Shown here piece after piece: positions 28,218-38,991 of a DNA stretch of 64,000 bases; within the stretch, counting starts at the first letter, position 1, and the number at the start of each line of letters is the position of its first letter. Location: the NCBI GenBank assembly GCA_011525385.1, contig WTGF01000059.1:62001-126000 (forward strand), given 5' to 3'. Origin of the DNA: Chloroflexota bacterium. Lineage in GTDB: Bacteria > Chloroflexota > Anaerolineae > Aggregatilineales > Phototrophicaceae. The position numbers and the translations under genes were made by a program. Under the pieces are notes generated by a model that was not told where the DNA came from, made no database searches, and saw only the letters and a list, made by a program, of their open reading frames with translations.

Positions 28218-29072
28218 ATGAATCAACGTCAGCAATCCAGAATCGAAAGTATCCTCAACCAGCGAATCGCGCGGGTTACCGCCTTGGCAGGCGGCATGAT
28301 CAGCGAAGTGATCAAAATCGAATTCCGTAACGATGACGCGCTCGTGGCGAAAATCGGCGACGGCGCTCACGATTTGCGTACTGAGGGTTACATGCTCAGG
28401 TATCTCCGAGAGAAAAGCAACTTGCCCGTGCCGGAGGTGTACCATGAGGAAGCTGATCTCTTGCTCATGGCGTTCGTAGACGGCGCGACCGAGTGGGATT
28501 CAGCCAGCCTCGCTCAATTGGGACGTCTGCTGGCAAACTGCCATCAGATCAACGCGGGTTCCTATGGATTGGAGCGAGATACGCTAATCGGTCCTTTGCA
28601 TCAACCAAACGAGCAATCGGAATCCTGGATCGAGTTCTTTCGGGAGTATAGACTTCGGTACATGATTGGCGTAGCGCGCGAATCAGGACATTTGCCGTCT
28701 CGGTTGCAGGGACGACTTGCCGAATTCGCCGATCAAATCGAGCGATACTTGATCGAACCGCAGAATCCCGTCCTCATTCACGGCGACATGTGGAGAACGA
28801 ATGTCATCGTGCGCGACGGCAGTATCCGAGGCATCATTGATCCGGCGCTCTATTACGCCCATAACGAAATGGAGCTGGCCTACATGACGCTCTTTGATGG
28901 CGTCGGAAGGGAATTCTTCGCCGCGTATCGCGAGATACAGCCGGTTGAGAATGACTTCTTTGATACCCGCCGACATGTGTATAATCTGTATCCACTGCTG
29001 GTTCATCTGACGATTTTTGGCGCTATGTATCTGCAGCCCCTCGATGCCACACTAAGGCGCTTCTCGATATAG
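28218..29072 (+). CDS. fructosamine/ketosamine-3-kinase family protein
   Basis: APH-like kinase of 284 residues in the fructosamine kinase family, whose bacterial members phosphorylate sugar adducts of proteins or amino acids (often ribulosamines) so that they fall off. Visible are LAGGMISEVIKIEF (nucleotide loop), ALVAKIGD with the ATP-binding Lys, the catalytic LIHGDMWRTNVIV (near 187-199), and the family-specific IDPALYYAHNEMELAY (near 206-221). The next gene set makes lysine, but nothing shows a functional link. Substrate is inferred from the family only. Confidence 0.87.
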   Translation: MNQRQQSRIESILNQRIARVTALAGGMISEVIKIEFRNDDALVAKIGDGAHDLRTEGYMLRYLREKSNLPVPEVYHEEADLLLMAFVDGATEWDSASLAQLGRLLANCHQINAGSYGLERDTLIGPLHQPNEQSESWIEFFREYRLRYMIGVARESGHLPSRLQGRLAEFADQIERYLIEPQNPVLIHGDMWRTNVIVRDGSIRGIIDPALYYAHNEMELAYMTLFDGVGREFFAAYREIQPVENDFFDTRRHVYNLYPLLVHLTIFGAMYLQPLDATLRRFSI

Positions 29073-29189
29073 TATGTCTTGGGTATTATGCATAGGAAAG
29101 TTCATACATACTGCATATAGAGTGTCGCGCTCTTAGCCGCTAAAGTTCAGGGGCTGCACGAGTCTTTGAAGCAATGGGACGATCTCAAG

Positions 29190-29249
29190 ATGATTCGAAC
29201 CAGCGCTGTACGCACAAGCAAAAAGGCCAAGAAGAACCCTACCCGTTAG
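29190..29249 (+). CDS. putative lysine-codon-rich leader peptide of the lysW operon
   Basis: A 19-codon frame (MIRTSAVRTSKKAKKNPTR, then TAG) carries four Lys codons as two pairs (29220-29225 and 29229-29234), 5 to 9 codons before the stop. It is followed by an alternative pairing segment and a terminator before lysW. The layout is that of amino-acid attenuators, in which slow decoding of the scarce amino acid lets the operon be transcribed. The start codon has only a weak GGGA-like ribosome site, and another frame starting at 29173 overlaps, so translation is a hypothesis. It is too short to be judged by coding statistics. Confidence 0.5.
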   Translation: MIRTSAVRTSKKAKKNPTR

Positions 29250-29250
29250 A

Positions 29251-29310
29251 TTGGGCTTGTTTGTGTTGATCGGAAATTGAACGCATACCCGCCCAGATGG
29301 CGGGTTTTTT
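29251..29310 (+). promoter_or_regulatory. attenuator: terminator hairpin with competing antiterminator pairing
   Basis: The terminator is a 7-bp stem, ACCCGCC (29287-29293) with GGCGGGT (29299-29305), loop CAGAT, then T to 29310. TTGGGC (29251-29256), directly after the leader-peptide stop, can instead pair with GCCCAG (29291-29296), which overlaps the terminator's left arm, so only one structure can form. A ribosome waiting at the Lys codons leaves TTGGGC free, and a ribosome at the stop codon covers it. The terminator itself is clear; the regulatory reading is inference. Confidence 0.6.
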
Positions 29311-29367
29311 AATTCGAGCAACCTTACTATAGTTAGCCGCTGGCAACAATTGCAGGAGATACTCAAA

Positions 29368-29544
29368 ATGACAAATGAAGCGCCCCTCTGTCCAGAATGC
29401 GATGCCGAAGTTGACATTCCCGGCGATGCCATGGAAAACGAATTGCTGTCATGCCCGGATTGTGGTATCGAGCTGGAAATCATGAACCTGGATCCCATTG
29501 AACTGGAACTCGCGCCGGAGGTTGAGGAAGACTGGGGAGAATAG
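29368..29544 (+). CDS. lysW: LysW, amino-group carrier protein for lysine biosynthesis
   Basis: Small acidic carrier protein whose C-terminal glutamate is joined to the amino group of alpha-aminoadipate, protecting it and serving as a handle for the later enzymes. The 58 residues contain two CPEC/CPDC zinc knuckles (near 8-11 and 29-32) and end in the diagnostic EDWGE. The start is the ATG at 29368 with AGGAGA at the right distance; a TTG at 29350 would place that site inside the coding sequence. It is the first gene of the lysine operon, 58 bases after the attenuator. Confidence 0.97.
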   Translation: MTNEAPLCPECDAEVDIPGDAMENELLSCPDCGIELEIMNLDPIELELAPEVEEDWGE

Positions 29545-29549
29545 CAATC

Positions 29550-30428
29550 ATGCGTGTTGCCCTGCTTGTCACCCATATACGTGCCGAAGAGAAGCTGATA
29601 CTCGCGGCATTCAACAAGCGCGATATCAGCCCGGATATCATTCTCGACCGCGAACTCAACTTCAACATTTCGGAAGGACCGCAGCAATTGGCGCCAAGCG
29701 GAATCGCCTGGCGCGAATACGATATGATATTCGAACGCTGCGTCAGCACGTCGCGAGGGATGTATGCCCTGGCGATACTCAATAGTTGGGGCCTGCGCAG
29801 CTTCAATACTTACGAGACTGCCGCCATATGCGGGGACAAGCTACGGACCAGTATTGCGCTTACTCTGCACGGTATTCCTCAGCCGCATACGCGGGTCGCG
29901 TTCACGCCGGAAAGCGCGATGCAAGCCATCGAGATCGTTGAATACCCAGCCGTTTTGAAGCCGGTAACCGGTTCCTGGGGCCGTCTGTTAGCGCGCGTAC
30001 ACAACAGAGACAGCGCCGAGGCCATCCTGGAACATCGACAGACCTTGGGCGACTACAATCACCACATTTATTATGTGCAGGAATACGTCGACAAACCGGG
30101 TCGCGATATACGCGCTTTTGTGGTGGGCAATCGCACTATTGCCGCCATCTACCGCGAGTCCAACCACTGGATCACCAATACCGCTCGCGGCGGCCTAGCG
30201 AGCAACTGCCCGGTGACGGAGAGCTTAAACGAGATCTGCGTTCGCGCGGCCGACGCGGTTGGGGGCGGCATCCTGGCTATTGACTTGCTGGAAGACGCGG
30301 GGGGCAAATTCGTCGTCAACGAAATCAACCATACGATGGAATTCCGCAATAGCAGCAAACCGACAGGCGTCGACATCGCCCAGGAAGTCATCGACTTTGT
30401 TATCGGGGAAGTAGGAGTGGTCGCGTGA
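29550..30428 (+). CDS. lysX: alpha-aminoadipate--LysW ligase
   Basis: RimK-like ATP-grasp enzyme that ligates alpha-aminoadipate to the C-terminal Glu of LysW. The 292 residues show AVLKPVTGSWGRLLARV (near 134-150), QEYVDKPGRDIRAFVVG, NTARGGLASNC and the metal-binding end VVNEINHTMEFRNSS, all typical of LysX. It follows lysW after 5 bases, and its TGA overlaps the GTG of lysY. Only one such ligase is present, so there is no sign here of the ArgX-type second ligase for arginine. Confidence 0.95.
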   Translation: MRVALLVTHIRAEEKLILAAFNKRDISPDIILDRELNFNISEGPQQLAPSGIAWREYDMIFERCVSTSRGMYALAILNSWGLRSFNTYETAAICGDKLRTSIALTLHGIPQPHTRVAFTPESAMQAIEIVEYPAVLKPVTGSWGRLLARVHNRDSAEAILEHRQTLGDYNHHIYYVQEYVDKPGRDIRAFVVGNRTIAAIYRESNHWITNTARGGLASNCPVTESLNEICVRAADAVGGGILAIDLLEDAGGKFVVNEINHTMEFRNSSKPTGVDIAQEVIDFVIGEVGVVA

Positions 30429-31450
30429 TTCAAGCGGGGATCGTGGGCGGCAGCGGCTATACCGGCGGGGAGTTGTTGCGTCTGTTGCATTTTCATCCCG
30501 AAGTCGAGCTGGGGCAGATTACCAGTCGTGAGCAGGCGGGCCGCTACATTCACACCGTGCATCCCAATCTTCGTGATGTATCCAGGTTGAAGTTTAGCCA
30601 TCCCGACGGTCTGGAAGCTTGCGATATGCTTTTTTTGGCGATGCCGCACGGTACTGCCGGGCGTAAAATCGATCATTTCGCCGCGCTTGCGCCAAAGCTG
30701 ATCGATCTCTCGGCGGATTTCCGCCTTGACTGTTCGGCCAGTTATCAACGTTGGTATGGCGAAGATCATCCTGCGCCAAGCTGGCTGGATCGATTCGTAT
30801 ATGGATTGCCGGAGGTGTATCGCGAAAGCTTGATCGGCGCGAATTTCGTCAGCGGCGTGGGTTGCAACGCGACTGTTATTAACCTGGCTCTCTTGCCGCT
30901 TGTCAGTGCCGGCTTGCTGGAACGCGCGGCGATCGAGATCAAAGTAGGATCCTCTGAAGGCGGAAACAAAGCCAACGCCGGGTCCCATCATCCGATCCGA
31001 AGCGGCGCCGTGCGTACTTACAAAGCGACGGGTCATCGACACAAGGCGGAAGTTGAACTGGTACTGGGCAGGGACCACCCAATTGACTTCGCCGTTACCG
31101 CCATCGAGATGGTGCGCGGCGTTCACCTCTTAGCGCATTGTTATCTGAGCGAGCCGCAGGTCGAGCGCGACATATGGAAGCTGTATCGCGCTCACTATCG
31201 CGACGAGCCTTTCCTGCGATTGGTCAGCGGCAAAACAGGATTGCATCGCTTGCCGGAACCGCGCGTGGTTGCCGGCAGCAATTTCTGCGATATCGGCTTT
31301 GAGCTGGACGGGGACGGCCGGCGCCTGGTGGTGGTTGCGGCTTTGGACAATTTGGGCAAGGGCGCCGCCGGCAGTGCCGTCCAGTGCATGAATCTTATGT
31401 TCGAACTCGACGAGACTGCGGGATTGGCATTCCCGGGGGTGTATCCCTAG
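30425..31450 (+). CDS. lysY: LysW-aminoadipate semialdehyde reductase (ArgC-like)
   Basis: NADPH-dependent reductase of the ArgC family that converts LysW-aminoadipyl phosphate to the semialdehyde. The dinucleotide-binding GIVGGSGYTGGELLRLL lies at the N-terminus (5-21), and the catalytic Cys is in SGVGCNATVINLAL (near 141-154). The GCNAT form, as opposed to GCYPT in classical ArgC, supports LysY. Length is 341. It starts with GTG overlapping the lysX stop and is followed after two bases by lysZ. Its position among the LysW genes makes the lysine role secure, but a side role in arginine synthesis cannot be excluded. Confidence 0.93.
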   Translation: MIQAGIVGGSGYTGGELLRLLHFHPEVELGQITSREQAGRYIHTVHPNLRDVSRLKFSHPDGLEACDMLFLAMPHGTAGRKIDHFAALAPKLIDLSADFRLDCSASYQRWYGEDHPAPSWLDRFVYGLPEVYRESLIGANFVSGVGCNATVINLALLPLVSAGLLERAAIEIKVGSSEGGNKANAGSHHPIRSGAVRTYKATGHRHKAEVELVLGRDHPIDFAVTAIEMVRGVHLLAHCYLSEPQVERDIWKLYRAHYRDEPFLRLVSGKTGLHRLPEPRVVAGSNFCDIGFELDGDGRRLVVVAALDNLGKGAAGSAVQCMNLMFELDETAGLAFPGVYP

Positions 31451-31452
31451 TT

Positions 31453-32274
31453 ATGCGCGCAAAGATGACTCCTGATAAATTGCTGGTAGTCAAAATCGGC
31501 GGCGGCGCGGGCTTGGACCTGCCCGCGACTTGCGACGATCTGGCCTTGATTGCCGGCCAGCGCGCCCTGGTTGTGGTTCATGGCGTCAGCGCGATTATGG
31601 ATCAAATGTGCCGGGACCTGGGTATCGAAGTGCAATCGCTGACATCGCCGTCCGGCCATAGTTCTCGCTACACGCCGCCCGCCGTGCGCGACATCTATGT
31701 ACGCGCTTCGGAAGCGGCGAATCAAGGCGTGATATCCGCCCTGCGCCAACGAGGGGTGAATGCGCTGGGAATGTCGGGAAACGATGTTGTGATCAGCGGC
31801 AGGCGAAAAAAAGCGATTCGCGCTGTCATGAATGGGCGTGTTCGTATCGTGCGTGATGATTGCAGCGGCTCAATACAATCCGTGCATAGCGACGTCCTGC
31901 AAAGCGCGCTTGACGAGGGTCAAGTACCCGTGTTGCCGCCAATGGCGAGGGGCGATGATGGTTTGCTCAATGTCGACGGCGACCGCGCCGGCGCAGCCGC
32001 CGCGGCGGCGCTGGCTGCCGGTACGCTTGTTATCCTCAGCAATGTCAGAGGTTTGTATCGCGAGTTTCCAGACGAATCATCGTTCGTCTCGGAGGTGGCG
32101 CGTTCGCAGATAGACAGCGCGGAATCATGGGCACGGGGACGCATGAAACGCAAAATAATAGCGGCTCGCGAGGCGCTAGACGGCGGCGTAAGTCAGGTTA
32201 TCATCGCCGACGGCCGCGTCCCGCAGCCGGTATCAAGAGCGCTAGTGGGCGCAGGGACAAGGTTTGGAGCATGA
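31453..32274 (+). CDS. lysZ: LysW-aminoadipate kinase
   Basis: Amino acid kinase-fold enzyme that phosphorylates LysW-bound aminoadipate. The 273 residues include LLVVKIGGGAGL near 9-20, VVHGVSAIMDQMCRDLG, a GNDVVISG block and INVDGDR-like LLNVDGDRAGAAAA near 174-187. It is related to ArgB kinases but lies between lysY and lysJ. ATG 31453, two bases after the lysY stop, was chosen; a second ATG follows four codons later. Its TGA overlaps the lysJ ATG. Confidence 0.93.
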   Translation: MRAKMTPDKLLVVKIGGGAGLDLPATCDDLALIAGQRALVVVHGVSAIMDQMCRDLGIEVQSLTSPSGHSSRYTPPAVRDIYVRASEAANQGVISALRQRGVNALGMSGNDVVISGRRKKAIRAVMNGRVRIVRDDCSGSIQSVHSDVLQSALDEGQVPVLPPMARGDDGLLNVDGDRAGAAAAAALAAGTLVILSNVRGLYREFPDESSFVSEVARSQIDSAESWARGRMKRKIIAAREALDGGVSQVIIADGRVPQPVSRALVGAGTRFGA

Positions 32275-33437
32275 TTGACGCGGGCAGGCTATTCGACTTG
32301 GAAGACGGTCACGGCTCGGGCGCATACGGCAAAAGGCCAACTGCCCTCGTGCGCGGCGAGGGTGTCTATGTCTACGACGAGGACGGCGCTCGGTATCTGG
32401 ATGCCACAAGCGGCCAGGGCGTGGCGGCACTGGGTCACAGCCATCCAGCGGTAGTAGGAGCAATCACCGAGCAAGCGGGACGACTGATTACTTGCCACGA
32501 ATCTTTTTACAACGATCGTCGCGCCGAGTTCTACGATCTGTTGTCGGGTATCATGCCAGCCGATTTGCAGCGCTTTTTTCTCTGCAATAGCGGCGCCGAA
32601 GCTATTGAAGGCTCGCTGAAAGTGGCGAAGTTGCTGACGGGACGTGACGGCATCGTTGCGGCCAAACGCGCCTTCCACGGGCGGACCACCGGCGCCCTCT
32701 CGATGACCTGGACCCCAAAATATCGCAAACCGTTTCAAGCCTGGCTGCCATCTGTGACTCACATTCCCTATAACGACATAGAGGCCGCGCAGGGAGCAAT
32801 CACGGAAGATACGGCGGCGGTTGTGGCCGAGGCGGTGCAAGGCGAAGGCGGCGTGCATCCGGCCCAGGACGAATACCTGCAAGCTTTGCGCGATACCTGC
32901 GACCGCAGGGGCGCCATGCTCGTCTTTGATGAGATTCAAACCGGATTGGGACGGACCGGCCGTTGGTTCGGCTTTCAACATGCCGATGTCACGCCCGATA
33001 TCGTTGCTATAGCCAAGGCGATTGGCGGCGGCTTGCCCATGGGCGTCGTCAGTTGGCGCGCCACGCACGGTCCCATTGATCGCGCTACGCACGGCAGCAC
33101 CTTTGGCGGGAATCCGTTGGCATGCGCGGCGGCCATCGCTACTTTGACGACGCTGCGAGATCAGGGACTGGTAGAGCAGGCGGCGGGCAACGGCAGTTGG
33201 ATGGCCGAGCGCTTGCGCGCGCTCGAGCTCAACTCGGTCCGTGAGGTCCGCGGACGCGGTCTGATGCTTGGTTTGGAATTGCGCGGTCGCGTCACGCCGG
33301 CGCTTAAAGCGCTGCAGGAAACTGGCATTCTCGCCTTACCTGCCGGCCTGAACACGCTGCGTCTCTTGCCGCCGCTGATCATCACCCGCGAGCAGTTGCA
33401 AGTCATTGTGGACGCAATCGCCGAGGTTTTGGACTGA
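32271..33437 (+). CDS. lysJ: LysW-gamma-L-lysine aminotransferase
   Basis: Class III PLP-dependent aminotransferase that converts LysW-bound semialdehyde to LysW-lysine. Family blocks: DATSGQGVAALGHSHPAV near 43-60, SGAEAIEGSLKVAK, KRAFHGRTTGALS, VFDEIQTGLGRTGRWFGF near 219-236 (PLP-binding Asp), and IAKAIGGGLPMG with the Schiff-base Lys near 248. Length is 388. The start at 32271 overlaps the lysZ stop by four bases; the open frame upstream runs in another frame of lysZ and is not used. Related to ArgD, but context fixes it as LysJ. Confidence 0.94.
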   Translation: MIDAGRLFDLEDGHGSGAYGKRPTALVRGEGVYVYDEDGARYLDATSGQGVAALGHSHPAVVGAITEQAGRLITCHESFYNDRRAEFYDLLSGIMPADLQRFFLCNSGAEAIEGSLKVAKLLTGRDGIVAAKRAFHGRTTGALSMTWTPKYRKPFQAWLPSVTHIPYNDIEAAQGAITEDTAAVVAEAVQGEGGVHPAQDEYLQALRDTCDRRGAMLVFDEIQTGLGRTGRWFGFQHADVTPDIVAIAKAIGGGLPMGVVSWRATHGPIDRATHGSTFGGNPLACAAAIATLTTLRDQGLVEQAAGNGSWMAERLRALELNSVREVRGRGLMLGLELRGRVTPALKALQETGILALPAGLNTLRLLPPLIITREQLQVIVDAIAEVLD

Positions 33438-33440
33438 GCC

Positions 33441-34493
33441 ATGTCCGCGATTTCCCCAGCCGCAGCGGAAGAATTGCTGCACGATCTGGTCGCTATCGCC
33501 AGCCCCTCGCGCCAAGAGTCAGAGGCAGCCGCGTTTCTGGTTCAGTGGATGCGCGCGGCCGGCTATGACGAAGCCTTTGTCGATGAAGCCGGCAATGCGG
33601 TGGGCATCGTCGGCACGGGTGAATCAGACGTTATTCTGCTCGGCCATATCGACACCTTTGGGGGTTTCCCGCCCGTCCAGATCAAGGATCGGATACTCTA
33701 CGGACGGGGATCGGTCGACGCCAAAGGACCGCTGTCTACCTTTGCAGTTGCCGCGGGGCGCGCCAAGGTCCCTGACGACAACCGCGTCATCGTGGTGGGC
33801 GCTGTGGAAGAAGAAGCGGCGACCAGCAAAGGCGCGCGTCATATAGTAGCGAATTATCGGCCGGCCTATTGCGTCATCGGCGAGCCGTCGCACTGGGATC
33901 GCATAACGTTGGGTTACAAGGGGCGGCTGCTGGTAGACTGGCGCTGGGAAGGCGGACTGGCGCACAGCGCGGGCGAAGCGCCAAGCCCGGCTGAACGCGC
34001 CGTCGACTATTGGTTGCGGATCCAAAGGCGCGCGGCAGAACACAATCGGGGTATCGACTCGATCTTCGCCCGCCTGGATGCGTCGCTACGTGATCTTCGC
34101 ACTTATCAAGATGGCATTAACGGCGTTGCCGAAATGACGATCGGGTTCCGTCTGCCGCCGGATGTCGATCCCGGCGAAGTAGCCGCGGATTTGGAGCCTG
34201 CTGACGGCGCGACTATCGCCACGCACGGCGCGGAGAATGCCTACACCGCGGACAAAAACAGCGCGCTAAGTCGGGTTTTTCGCCGAGCGATACGCGCTAG
34301 CGGCGGTACGCCGCGCTTTTTGTACAAGACCGGCACATCGGACATGAACATCGCGGGTCCGGGCTGGGACTGTCCCATTGTCGCCTACGGCCCCGGTGAT
34401 TCCGCGCTTGATCATACGCCGAATGAACATATCAACCTGGATGAGTACCTGCTTGCGATTGATGTGCTCACCGCGGTCCTGGAATCCCTGTAG
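33441..34493 (+). CDS. lysK: LysW-lysine hydrolase
   Basis: M20-family metallopeptidase that frees lysine from LysW, the last step of the carrier route. The 350 residues contain the metal-binding His-x-Asp in LLGHIDTFGG near 70-79, GRGSVDAKGPL with the bridging Asp, and VVGAVEEEAATSKGARH with the catalytic and metal-binding Glu pair. A C-terminal dimerisation-like domain and the late DHTPNEHI His block are present. It starts 3 bases after the lysJ stop. Confidence 0.94.
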   Translation: MSAISPAAAEELLHDLVAIASPSRQESEAAAFLVQWMRAAGYDEAFVDEAGNAVGIVGTGESDVILLGHIDTFGGFPPVQIKDRILYGRGSVDAKGPLSTFAVAAGRAKVPDDNRVIVVGAVEEEAATSKGARHIVANYRPAYCVIGEPSHWDRITLGYKGRLLVDWRWEGGLAHSAGEAPSPAERAVDYWLRIQRRAAEHNRGIDSIFARLDASLRDLRTYQDGINGVAEMTIGFRLPPDVDPGEVAADLEPADGATIATHGAENAYTADKNSALSRVFRRAIRASGGTPRFLYKTGTSDMNIAGPGWDCPIVAYGPGDSALDHTPNEHINLDEYLLAIDVLTAVLESL

Positions 34494-34511
34494 ATCGAGA
34501 CTAGGAGTCTT

Positions 34512-35663
34512 ATGCACAACAGAAACGCGCCCGTTCAAGATTTTCATTTCATCGATTCGACCCTGCGAGAGGGCGAGCAATTCCGTGGAACGCACTTCAC
34601 CATCGACGACAAGAAGGAAATCGCCCGGTTGCTGGATCGTTTCGGTGTCGAGTACATGGAACTGTCCACGCCCGTCGCCAGCCCGCAGAGCGCTGACGCG
34701 ATACGGGCATTGGCCGACATGCGCCGGGATTTCAAGCTGCTGACCCATATTCGCGCTGATATGGACGATGCCAAACTGGCGGTCGACTGTGGCGTTGACG
34801 GGGCCGATGTTTATATCGGCACCTCCAATTACATGCGTGAATACAGCCATGGCAAGAGCCTCGATCAAGTCATTGAGATTGGTCAGCGAGTCATCCAGTA
34901 CCTTAACGAGCAAAACATCGAGACGCGTTTCAGCACGGAAGATACGTTCCGCAGCAATTTCGCCGACGTGATGACCGTTTATCGCGCCATGGATCTGGCA
35001 GGCGTCGATCGCGTTGGCGTCGCCGATACTGTGGGCATTGCCGATCCACTCAGCACCTACAACCTCATATCGAATCTGCGCGATGTGGTCAGCTGCGACA
35101 TTGAGTTTCATGGCCACAACGACAGCGGCTGCGCGGTGGCCAACGCCTTTTGCGCCTTGCAAGCCGGGGCGACGCATATCGATACCACCGTGCTGGGGAT
35201 CGGTGAAAGGAACGGCATCACGCCCATGGGGACCCTGATCGCGCGTCTCTACACCTGTGACAAGTCACTGGTCGAGAAATACGACTTGCCGCTGTTGGGG
35301 GAGATTGAGGAACTGGTCGCGCGGAAACTGGGAATCGCGATTCCCTTCAACATGCCGATTACCGGCGAAGTAGCCTTTCATCACAAAGCCGGCGTACATA
35401 CCAAGGCCGTACTGCAGAATCCAACCACATATGAAGCCATAGATCCTGATGACTTTGGCATGAGCCGATTCATCGATGTCGCGCACCGTCTGGTCGGGCG
35501 CAACGCCATCCGCGACCGCGCTTTGACACTCGGTCTCGATCTTCCAGAAGACATGCTGCGGCTGGTGACGGCGCAAGTGAAAGCGCTCGCCGACCTGGGT
35601 CCGATCACGATTCAAGATGTTGATGACATGATCTTCCAAATCATGCATCCGGTGGAAGACTAG
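34512..35663 (+). CDS. lysS: homocitrate synthase
   Basis: DRE-TIM metallolyase that condenses 2-oxoglutarate with acetyl-CoA, the first step of the alpha-aminoadipate route. The N-terminal FIDSTLREGEQF signature (near 14-25) is that of homocitrate synthases. ELSTPVASPQS, RFSTEDTFRS, VADTVGIADP, EFHGHNDSGCAVANA and GERNGITPMG closely follow the Thermus enzyme as I remember it. At 383 residues it lacks the allosteric C-terminal LeuA dimer domain of isopropylmalate synthase. That fits homocitrate rather than leucine synthesis and leaves lysine feedback, if any, to the active site. An 18-base gap separates it from lysK. Its stop overlaps the stop of the convergent MFS gene. Confidence 0.94.
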   Translation: MHNRNAPVQDFHFIDSTLREGEQFRGTHFTIDDKKEIARLLDRFGVEYMELSTPVASPQSADAIRALADMRRDFKLLTHIRADMDDAKLAVDCGVDGADVYIGTSNYMREYSHGKSLDQVIEIGQRVIQYLNEQNIETRFSTEDTFRSNFADVMTVYRAMDLAGVDRVGVADTVGIADPLSTYNLISNLRDVVSCDIEFHGHNDSGCAVANAFCALQAGATHIDTTVLGIGERNGITPMGTLIARLYTCDKSLVEKYDLPLLGEIEELVARKLGIAIPFNMPITGEVAFHHKAGVHTKAVLQNPTTYEAIDPDDFGMSRFIDVAHRLVGRNAIRDRALTLGLDLPEDMLRLVTAQVKALADLGPITIQDVDDMIFQIMHPVED

Positions 35664-37199: not shown

Positions 37200-38489
37200 A
37201 TGGCGATGACAGCGACGGAAAAGCACCTGGCGCGCGCCAGCGGCAAAAGCGTCGTAAAGCCCGGGGACGTCGTTGTTATCGAACCGGATGTAATCCTGAG
37301 CCACGACAACACAGCCGCAATCGCGCAGCTGTTCGAGCGGCTCCCGCACGGGCGCATAATGTACCCGGAACGTCTGGCGATCACGCTTGACCATGCGGTA
37401 CCCCCGCCCAGCCCCAGCCATGCCCGGAATCATCAGGCGGTTCGACGCTTTGTTCGCGAGCACGGCATTCGCAACTTCTTTGAAGTCGGGCGGGGGATTT
37501 GTCACCAGGTGCTGTGCGAAGAAGGACTTGTGGGTCCCGGTATGACCCTGCTGGGCGCAGACAGTCACAGCACACACTTCGGATGGCTGGGCGCATTCAG
37601 CGCTGGCATCGGACGCAGCGAGGTCGCTGCGCTATGGGCGACCGGGGAGCTTTGGCTGCGTGTTCCAGAGACCATTCGCATCACGCTCTCGGGCGAATTC
37701 AAAACGGGGGTAACGAGCAAGGACTTGACCATCCACCTTATAGGACAACTGTCGTCGGAAGGCGCCAACTACAAGGCTGTCGAATTCGCTGGCGACGGCC
37801 TGAACTCCCTGACTCCCGATTCACGGGCCGTACTCACGAATATGATGGCGGAGATGGGCGCCAAGAACGCCTGGATCGCGCCTGACGACATCACCTGGGC
37901 TTGGCTTGAGAACATGATGCGGCGGACACGACCGGGAGACTATCGAGAACGTCTGGCGCATTTTGAGGAAAACGCCCTGTACGCGGATGCCGACGCGGAC
38001 TATGCCGAAGAACATCACATCAGTCTCGGTTGCATTGAACCCGTGATCTCTTGCCCGCACGCTGTAGACAATGTCCTGCCGCTTTCAGAAGTCCGCGAAA
38101 CGCCGGTAGATCTGGGGTTTATAGGCACCTGTACCAATGGCAGGCTCGAGGATATTGCCGCCGCTGCGGAAGTGCTGCGCGGCCAGAAACTCCGCGCGCG
38201 GCTGCTGGTCATCCCAGCCTCGTCGATGGTTCTGCGCGATGCCAGCGAAGCCGGCCATATCGCTACCCTGATTGATGCCGGCGCAACCGTCGGCACGCCC
38301 GGCTGCGGACCCTGCATGGGGGTTCACATGGGCGTTCTAGCGCCGGGCGAGGTCTGCATCAGCAGCGCCAACCGCAACTTCCGCGGGAGGATGGGCGAAC
38401 GCGATGCGCAGATCTATCTCGCCAATCCAGCAGTTGTCGCCGCAAGTTGCGTCGCCGGTTACATCATCCATCCAGCCGATCTGTTATAG
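37200..38489 (+). CDS. lysT: homoaconitase large subunit
   Basis: Iron-sulfur hydro-lyase subunit that, with the small subunit, isomerises homocitrate to homoisocitrate. The 429 residues match the prokaryotic isopropylmalate/homoaconitate isomerase large subunit. Cluster ligands are Cys in [11 protein letters not shown] (near 311) and the C-x2-C in [12 protein letters not shown] (near 369-372). [16 protein letters not shown] near 120-135 is the family substrate loop. It resembles LeuC, so leucine synthesis is the alternative; location with homocitrate synthase and LysW genes favours lysine. A degenerate repeat lies in the leader, and the gap to lysU is 7 bases. Confidence 0.88.
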
Positions 38490-38496
38490 GGAAGCC

Positions 38497-38991
38497 ATGT
38501 CTACAAGCTCGCACCGCGTCTGGAAATACGGCGACAATATCAATACCGACGTCATCTTCCCCGGCAAGTACACCTATACAGTTAGCCACAATCCAGCAGA
38601 GCTGGCGCGTCACGCCTTGGAAGATCTGGATCCCGAATTTGCGGTGAATGTCCGGCCGGGCGATGTTATCGTTGCCGGCCGCAATTGGGGCAACGGCAGC
38701 AGTCGCGAGCAAGCGGTCACCTGCCTGGCGCATGCCGGCGTCCGAGCGGTGATAGCCAGCAGTTTCGCGCGCATTTACTATCGCAACGCCATTAACAATG
38801 GTTTGCTCGCGATTCCCTGTCCGGAGATTGTATCTGTCGTGAGCGCTGGCGATGTCCTTGAGATCGACATGGAAAACGCGACATTGATATGGCATGGGCG
38901 GGTGTTCGACTTTCCTCCTCTGCCGGCGCAGGTGCGGGATATTCTGGACGCAAACGGTATTATCCCCTATTTACAAGCAAAGCATCTCTAG
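38497..38991 (+). CDS. lysU: homoaconitase small subunit
   Basis: Swivel-domain subunit of 164 residues. It contains [19 protein letters not shown] near 9-27 and the [13 protein letters not shown] block near 65-77 that carries the catalytic Ser, then [21 protein letters not shown]. The YTYT region in the loop that determines substrate in this family differs from typical LeuD, but I cannot call specificity from it alone. I start at the ATG after GGGAAGCC, 7 bases beyond the lysT stop. The next 155 bases, up to the ComM gene, hold only a TAGAAT box. Confidence 0.88.

Follow-up and report, generated by a model that had tools for sequence, protein, structure and literature searches.

What controls the lysine biosynthesis operon that begins with lysW in this Chloroflexota bacterium, and to which signal would its leader respond? 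In the window, that is, the whole stretch of 64,000 nucleotides that was analyzed, a sequence-only reading had picked out a 19-residue frame with two Lys-Lys codon pairs, its TAG codon at 29247, a TTGGGC segment, a terminator, and a GCCCAG segment complementary to TTGGGC. All of these were found at the positions given; the gap between the end of the T-run and the lysW start codon (ATG 29368), given as 58 bases, measures 57. The features of the locus are as follows.

29101..29146, + strand: promoter-like stretch with a putative role only (TTCATAC 29101-29107, TATAGA 29116-29121, TAAAGT 29141-29146)
29190..29249, + strand: leader peptide frame MIRTSAVRTSKKAKKNPTR, 19 codons, read from the sequence (ATG 29190, stop TAG 29247-29249)
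29220..29234, + strand: candidate regulatory Lys codons AAA AAG GCC AAG AAG (AAA AAG 29220-29225, AAG AAG 29229-29234)
29242..29245, + strand: CCCG of the last leader codons, able to pair with TGGG 29252-29255 and sequester the antiterminator segment
29251..29256, + strand: antiterminator segment 2, TTGGGC, covarying with the left arm and loop of the terminator
29262..29285, + strand: inner hairpin TGTGTT 29262-29267 / AACGCA 29280-29285, within the antiterminator and also compatible with the terminator
29287..29310, + strand: intrinsic terminator ACCCGCC-CAGAT-GGCGGGT with a T-run (arms 29287-29293 and 29299-29305, T to 29310)
29291..29296, + strand: segment 3, GCCCAG, overlapping the left arm and loop of the terminator
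29368..29544, + strand: lysW, first gene of the operon (NF041070, E 8.8e-20; TIGR01206, E 3.3e-14)
29550..35663, + strand: lysX, lysY (argC-like), lysZ, lysJ, lysK, and homocitrate synthase, by NCBIfam profiles

The lysW product scores just below the cut-offs of both its profiles (70.5 bits against 75 for NF041070, and 52.5 bits against 53.2 for TIGR01206). In 29550-35663, the profiles TIGR02144, TIGR01850, NF010659, NF003367, and TIGR02146 are matched above cut-off; the LysJ frame is above the cut-off of the argD subfamily model TIGR00707 and matches the LysJ model NF042418 below cut-off. Because of the gene spacing and common strand, we infer a single lysW-lysX-lysY-lysZ-lysJ-lysK-hcs operon. 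By NCBIfam, its content is that of the LysW-type lysine pathway, that is, the product is the amino acid proposed to be sensed. Homoaconitase-type frames lie within 37200-38991, behind an oppositely oriented frame that is transporter-like by eye. On the other side of the leader, the frame 28218-29072 resembles APH-type small-molecule kinases, with all matches far below the curated cut-offs.

We suggest that the leader is a ribosome-mediated transcription attenuator of the his/trp type that senses lysine via the charging of tRNA-Lys. Transcription would start upstream of 29190, with a ribosome translating the leader behind RNA polymerase. Given enough lysine, the ribosome would reach the stop codon and cover TTGGGC, the terminator (29287-29305) would form, and transcription would end before lysW. 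A shortage of lysyl-tRNA would presumably halt the ribosome at K-K-A-K-K, with TTGGGC left free to pair with GCCCAG in a helix stacked on the inner one (29262-29285); with the terminator blocked, the whole operon would be read. We put the probability of this reading at about 90%, on the basis of the frame, its Lys codons and their geometry, both alternative helices with their covariation, and the operon content, all of them properties of the DNA itself.

The leader frame and its Lys codons

Of the 61 genomes searched, 33 are further members of the genus; lysX was found in every one of these, and all 34 genus leaders are readable: the motif K-K-[AV]-K-K is followed by four codons and a stop. 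The anticipated conservation of the Lys codons is borne out, as two Lys-Lys pairs are present in 33 of the 34 leaders, the sole exception (G005) having T-K-x-K-K. At the four Lys places of the 34 genomes (n = 136) the codons are AAG (124), AAA (11), and ACG (1), so that, bar the one ACG, only AAA/AAG exchanges occur. The middle codon of the motif is variable (GCN or GTN), the stop codon is TGA in 14, TAA in 13, and TAG in seven leaders, and the N-terminal part of the peptide varies in length and sequence. The spacing is fixed throughout: in 34/34 members exactly 12 nt separate the last Lys codon from the stop, and GGG starts 6-7 nt downstream of the stop codon's first base. Within the window, K-K-x-K-K is unique to the leader among 970 ATG frames 7-45 codons long, a number that takes in both strands and nested starts. 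On the whole, the genus pattern looks like the signature of a translated leader in which the Lys codons and the geometry matter.

An in-frame TTG at 29166 is a possible alternative start, and by eye no clear Shine-Dalgarno sequence precedes the frame in the alignment of the 34 leaders. Another frame, of 31 codons in a different register (29174-29269), was set aside because the conserved coding signal sits in the Lys frame. ARAGORN, run on 29000-29500 to see whether the TTCGAACC stretch within the leader belongs to a tRNA gene, found none. Upstream of the leader, the block TTC[GA]TAC..TATAG..TAAAGT is largely conserved in the genus, with TTC, TAG, and TA.AGT in at least 80% of the rows of the 34-member alignment, and is a candidate promoter or binding site.

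Could such a leader respond to something other than lysine, the ribosome being halted by the Lys-rich peptide itself or by slow translation under an antibiotic, cold, or ribosome shortage? Lys-rich nascent chains can slow ribosomes, and two features of the genus leaders fit such a signal. The peptide ends in T-[HR] in 30 of the 34 leaders (counted from the alignment), which the reading of Lys codons alone leaves unexplained; pairing of CCC[AG] with TGGG, or the peptide itself, may be the cause. In addition, AAG makes up 124/136 of the Lys codons in the leaders versus 59/106 in 14 genes of the window (AAG 59, AAA 47), a preference that may reflect something besides tRNA charging. Against this stand the product of the downstream operon, which is lysine, and the choice of residue: when the same rule was applied to every residue at 95 loci, with leaders sought only before lysW, the enriched residue was Lys at 72, Arg at 12, and any other at no more than two. 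Moreover, arrest peptides usually keep more than their stall residues, whereas the N-terminal part of the leader is free to vary. We thus regard a signal other than lysine as unlikely and retain the lysine attenuator.

Terminator, alternative pairing, and folding

The terminator is kept in 34/34 genus members with all seven pairs (100% of cells paired). The window holds five terminator-like sites on both strands, and a Lys-rich frame (at least four Lys in seven codons) lies ahead of only one, that of the leader. The fold energy of 29190-29312 is unremarkable (z -1.62, with 14/200 shuffles as good), and a generic terminator scan of 28500-30000 (1501 bases) found one site versus 1.4 expected. 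It is conservation that raises the leader above chance, not fold energy or terminator count, as judged on sequence. One genus member (G021, locus L006) has about 90 extra bases between terminator and lysW relative to its nearest relatives. Elsewhere in the genome, three near-matches to the antiterminator stretch, with one to two mismatches, were taken as chance because they lie within long open frames, membrane-protein-like by eye.

The proposed pairing of TTGGGC with GCCCAG is conserved, and it covaries both in the genus and across families. In the genus alignment, 91.2% of the antiterminator cells are paired versus 21.9-60.0% with the partner slid, cells changed on both sides number 16 (shuffles: 7.8, sd 2.0), and none of 500 shuffles attains the covariation score. 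Two of the five measures computed for the antiterminator do not clearly exceed shuffles: the number of pairs with two-sided change in the genus (three versus 2.9) is reached by 364/500, and the number of pair types by 50/500. The inner hairpin is paired in 86.9% of the genus cells, and its column pair 64-86 occurs as T-A, T-G, and C-G. The classical 1:2 protector helix is paired in 77.2% and displays no covariation above shuffles. In the genus alignment, RNAalifold instead predicts a hairpin between segment 2 (TGGG) and the end of the leader frame (CCC[AG] in its last codons), which has no two-sided changes and hence no covariation support.

For the comparison across families, 58 of 83 leaders were used, 25 lacking a GGG[CT] or GCCC-like core being dropped and one leader (L111) being counted twice. 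Pairing beyond the GGGC/GCCC core extends over 2.85 bp on average for 39 distinct flank pairs, versus 1.40 (sd 0.17) with permuted partners (0/5000 reach the real value, kinship ignored). For the 19 distinct flank pairs outside the genus, the extension is 3.47 versus 1.75 (sd 0.26) permuted (0/5000, kinship again ignored). The flank pairs include GTATGGGC/GCCCATAC, GTCCGGGC/GCCCGGAC, GTTCGGGC/GCCCGAAC, and TGTCTGGGC/GCCCAGACA. In the window's own leader the core is extended by 2 bp only, one of them G-T, and four leaders (G025, G029, L116, and L117) have no extension in the tested register. Among the aligned sequences, covariation of the alternative pairing is clearest across families, where it is stronger than within the genus.

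These comparisons bear on a simpler explanation, namely that the kinase-like gene upstream merely ends in a terminator, with a Lys-rich frame beside it by chance. A single site in 1501 bases, no more than expected by chance, and the unremarkable fold energy would suit it. However, 34 genus members retain the frame with its Lys codons, the spacing, and the terminator together, the alternative pairing covaries in the genus and in other families, and K-K-x-K-K occurs in only one of the 970 small ATG frames of the window, which makes this explanation very improbable. Least credible of the alternatives is that the leader contains a lysine riboswitch or a T-box: T-boxes do occur upstream of lysX in two other members of the phylum (L136 and L185), but no Rfam family matches the window at gathering thresholds, hence neither an L-box (RF00168) nor a T-box (RF00230), which control lysine genes in other bacteria, and what is conserved in the leader is a short part centered on the reading frame.

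For the lysine attenuator, the competing folds were computed for the 34 genus leaders on the assumption that the ribosome covers 16 nt counted from its P site. With the ribosome at the stop codon, the terminator forms in 34/34, an outcome almost built into the model, because the ribosome hides segment 2. When the first Lys codon is the stall site, 31/34 full transcripts fold mainly into the antiterminator, and 34/34 do so while the right arm of the terminator is still unmade. A stall at the last Lys codon gives the antiterminator in 14/34 and the terminator in 20/34 at equilibrium, and the antiterminator in 34/34 with the right arm still unmade. The geometry envisaged by the sequence-only reading is supported: a ribosome at the Lys codons leaves TTGGGC free, one at the stop hides it, and the spacings are kept in 34/34, but for a stall at the last Lys codon, favoring the antiterminator in only 14/34 at equilibrium, a kinetic argument is needed. 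The inner hairpin 29262-29285 is compatible with either state, which leaves the short TTGGGC/GCCCAG helix to decide between them.

In the absence of a ribosome, 25/34 genus leaders fold mainly into the terminator. In the window's own leader, the predicted fraction of antiterminator is 1.00 for a stall at the first Lys codon and 0.92 at the last, and that of terminator is 1.00 at the stop; without a ribosome, the antiterminator (0.72) is preferred over the terminator (0.28) at equilibrium. Tight shut-off without translation is therefore not predicted here, and the untranslated state is ambiguous.

Distribution and tandem leaders

The 95 loci comprise 34 from the genus and 61 from outside it, after removal of L081, a repeat of G036, and with G053 kept; L051-L080, L083, and L085, which belong to the window's own genus, were left out of the 95-locus count, the outside-genus count, and the shuffle control described below. 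A leader with at least four Lys in seven codons precedes a terminator at 39 of the 61 outside loci, and no match with at least four Lys was found at the other 22. One of the 39 (G050), 379 bases from the lysW CxxC, looks like chance, and two leaders visible by eye (G042 and G044) were missed by the script. In a shuffle control with a slightly different script, 39/61 real loci compare with 0/1220 shuffles. This control is undemanding, since 1199 of the shuffles contained no frame-plus-terminator of any kind; in it, G053 was skipped as too short and L081 was still included. The named relatives are mostly Chloroflexota or Anaerolineae, with a few others (for instance, L095 and L112).

In a sample of the phylum, lysX is present in 105 of 301 genomes. 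Among 69 further upstream regions, six have at least three Lys and two have at least four, one of these two (G300) being the same place as L082 and thus a repeat. The matches G148, L167, and L181 look real, and two others look like chance. Outside these branches, other controls may operate, or the leaders may have forms missed by the script. An Rfam search of 20 relatives, with 12 of the 69 regions among those searched, yielded two T-boxes and one tRNA; the T-box leaders upstream of lysX (L136:2571-2831, minus strand, and L185:1152-1415) represent a different control of the same pathway. In another family (L043-L046), the region upstream of lysW contains by eye a variant, MFFIDSISKKAKKTNT..., with GGCGATT, which could pair with AATCGCC in the loop and right arm of the terminator, not the left arm.

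Other amino acid genes of the genus were checked for terminators. The 500 bases ahead of ilvB (13 loci) and of trpE (12 loci) contained none, 19 of the 25 loci being sound and six (L218, L220, L223, L225, L226, and L231) being shortened by contig ends, some with a misplaced stretch; ilvB or trpE may lie inside operons, which limits this check.

Two Lys leaders in tandem were found at about 21-22 of the 95 loci: the script called 22, of which L111 is one leader called twice, leaving 21, and G033 was added by eye. The tandem units before lysW are located as follows.

L035 (G036), L048, L082, L084, L086, L088-L096, L101, L103-L105, L108, L109, L112: tandem units before lysW
L021:1151-1270: tandem units before lysW

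Usually a type A unit (for instance, KKAKK with GGGC/GCCC) comes first and a type B unit lies nearer to lysW; an example of the latter is DSKKKQSKKPDTRSG with its stop codon, accompanied in many cases by TCTGGAT/GTCCAGA. Within the window's genus, a second unit was seen by eye only in G033 (MISKTKQLKKTKQII and a stop codon), and we infer that this unit was lost or replaced in the genus. Tentatively, at somewhat less than even odds, the lysW operons of this branch of the phylum (Anaerolineae) could descend from a double lysine attenuator, of which the window's genus mostly keeps the first unit alone. In the double form, type A (SKKAKK, GGGC/GCCC) and type B (DSKKKQSKKPDTRSG, TCTGGA/TCCAGA) would each be tested by its own ribosome, and read-through would need two stalls, making the response sharper.

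Relation to known attenuators

Ribosome-mediated attenuation is textbook knowledge for the his, trp, leu, thr, and phe operons. The window leader shares with the his/trp attenuators a short frame with tandem codons for the product, a terminator just before the first structural gene, alternative antiterminator and terminator structures, and the masking of segment 2 by a ribosome at the stop. The his/trp-type logic read by lysine, as originally proposed, thus finds support in the Lys codons, the geometry, the terminator, and the covarying antiterminator. Unlike those attenuators, the window leader would read lysine, its 1:2 protector pairing is not well supported, and the choice is made by a short GGGC/GCCC helix located 6-7 nt past the stop codon's first base.

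The closest precedent is the lysine cluster of Thermus thermophilus, which Tsubouchi et al. reportedly placed under leader-peptide attenuation in 2005, so that the principle is not new, only the lineage and the form. That cluster reportedly likewise has a lysine leader before LysW-pathway genes; it differs in phylum and gene order, and many relatives of the window have tandem leaders. On a plasmid of Deinococcus sp. NW-56 (L202:556-665), MTALATASKKPTAPPG with its stop codon and a GC-rich terminator-like hairpin precede, by eye, the homocitrate synthase gene, which comes first there, whereas lysW comes first in the window.

Attenuators of the his/trp type, treated in a modelling paper (PMC1183508), are one point of reference; the mgtCBR leader of Salmonella, with tandem attenuators according to PMC3641672, is another. 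On that account, the mgtCBR leader resembles those of the window's relatives in having two short frames in one leader, and differs in that mgtCBR is not an amino acid biosynthesis operon, whereas the frames of the relatives are both Lys-rich, each with its own terminator. An actinobacterial survey (PMC1262725) reports no conserved RNA structures before lysine operons, and PMC4833913 mentions a leader that precedes the Lactococcus lactis gene lysQ, which encodes a permease with altered specificity. A survey of regulatory RNAs that includes Chloroflexi (PMC3766115) covers riboswitches and other Rfam motifs, and would miss a lysine attenuator. A lysine leader in Chloroflexota is named in no title or abstract start among the literature matches listed, which cover few subscription journals. 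What is new is the lineage, the breadth, and the tandem form; the kind of switch is already known.

The switch most likely allows the operon to be read only when lysine is scarce for the ribosomes; comparable switches, some of them double, are present in many relatives of this bacterium. The finding places a lysine version of classical amino acid attenuation in several families of a largely uncultured group. The 34 leaders in one genus and the tens outside it provide comparative material on how the geometry from stop codon to antiterminator is kept, and the tandem leaders are a natural setting in which to ask whether a response becomes sharper with two attenuators in series.
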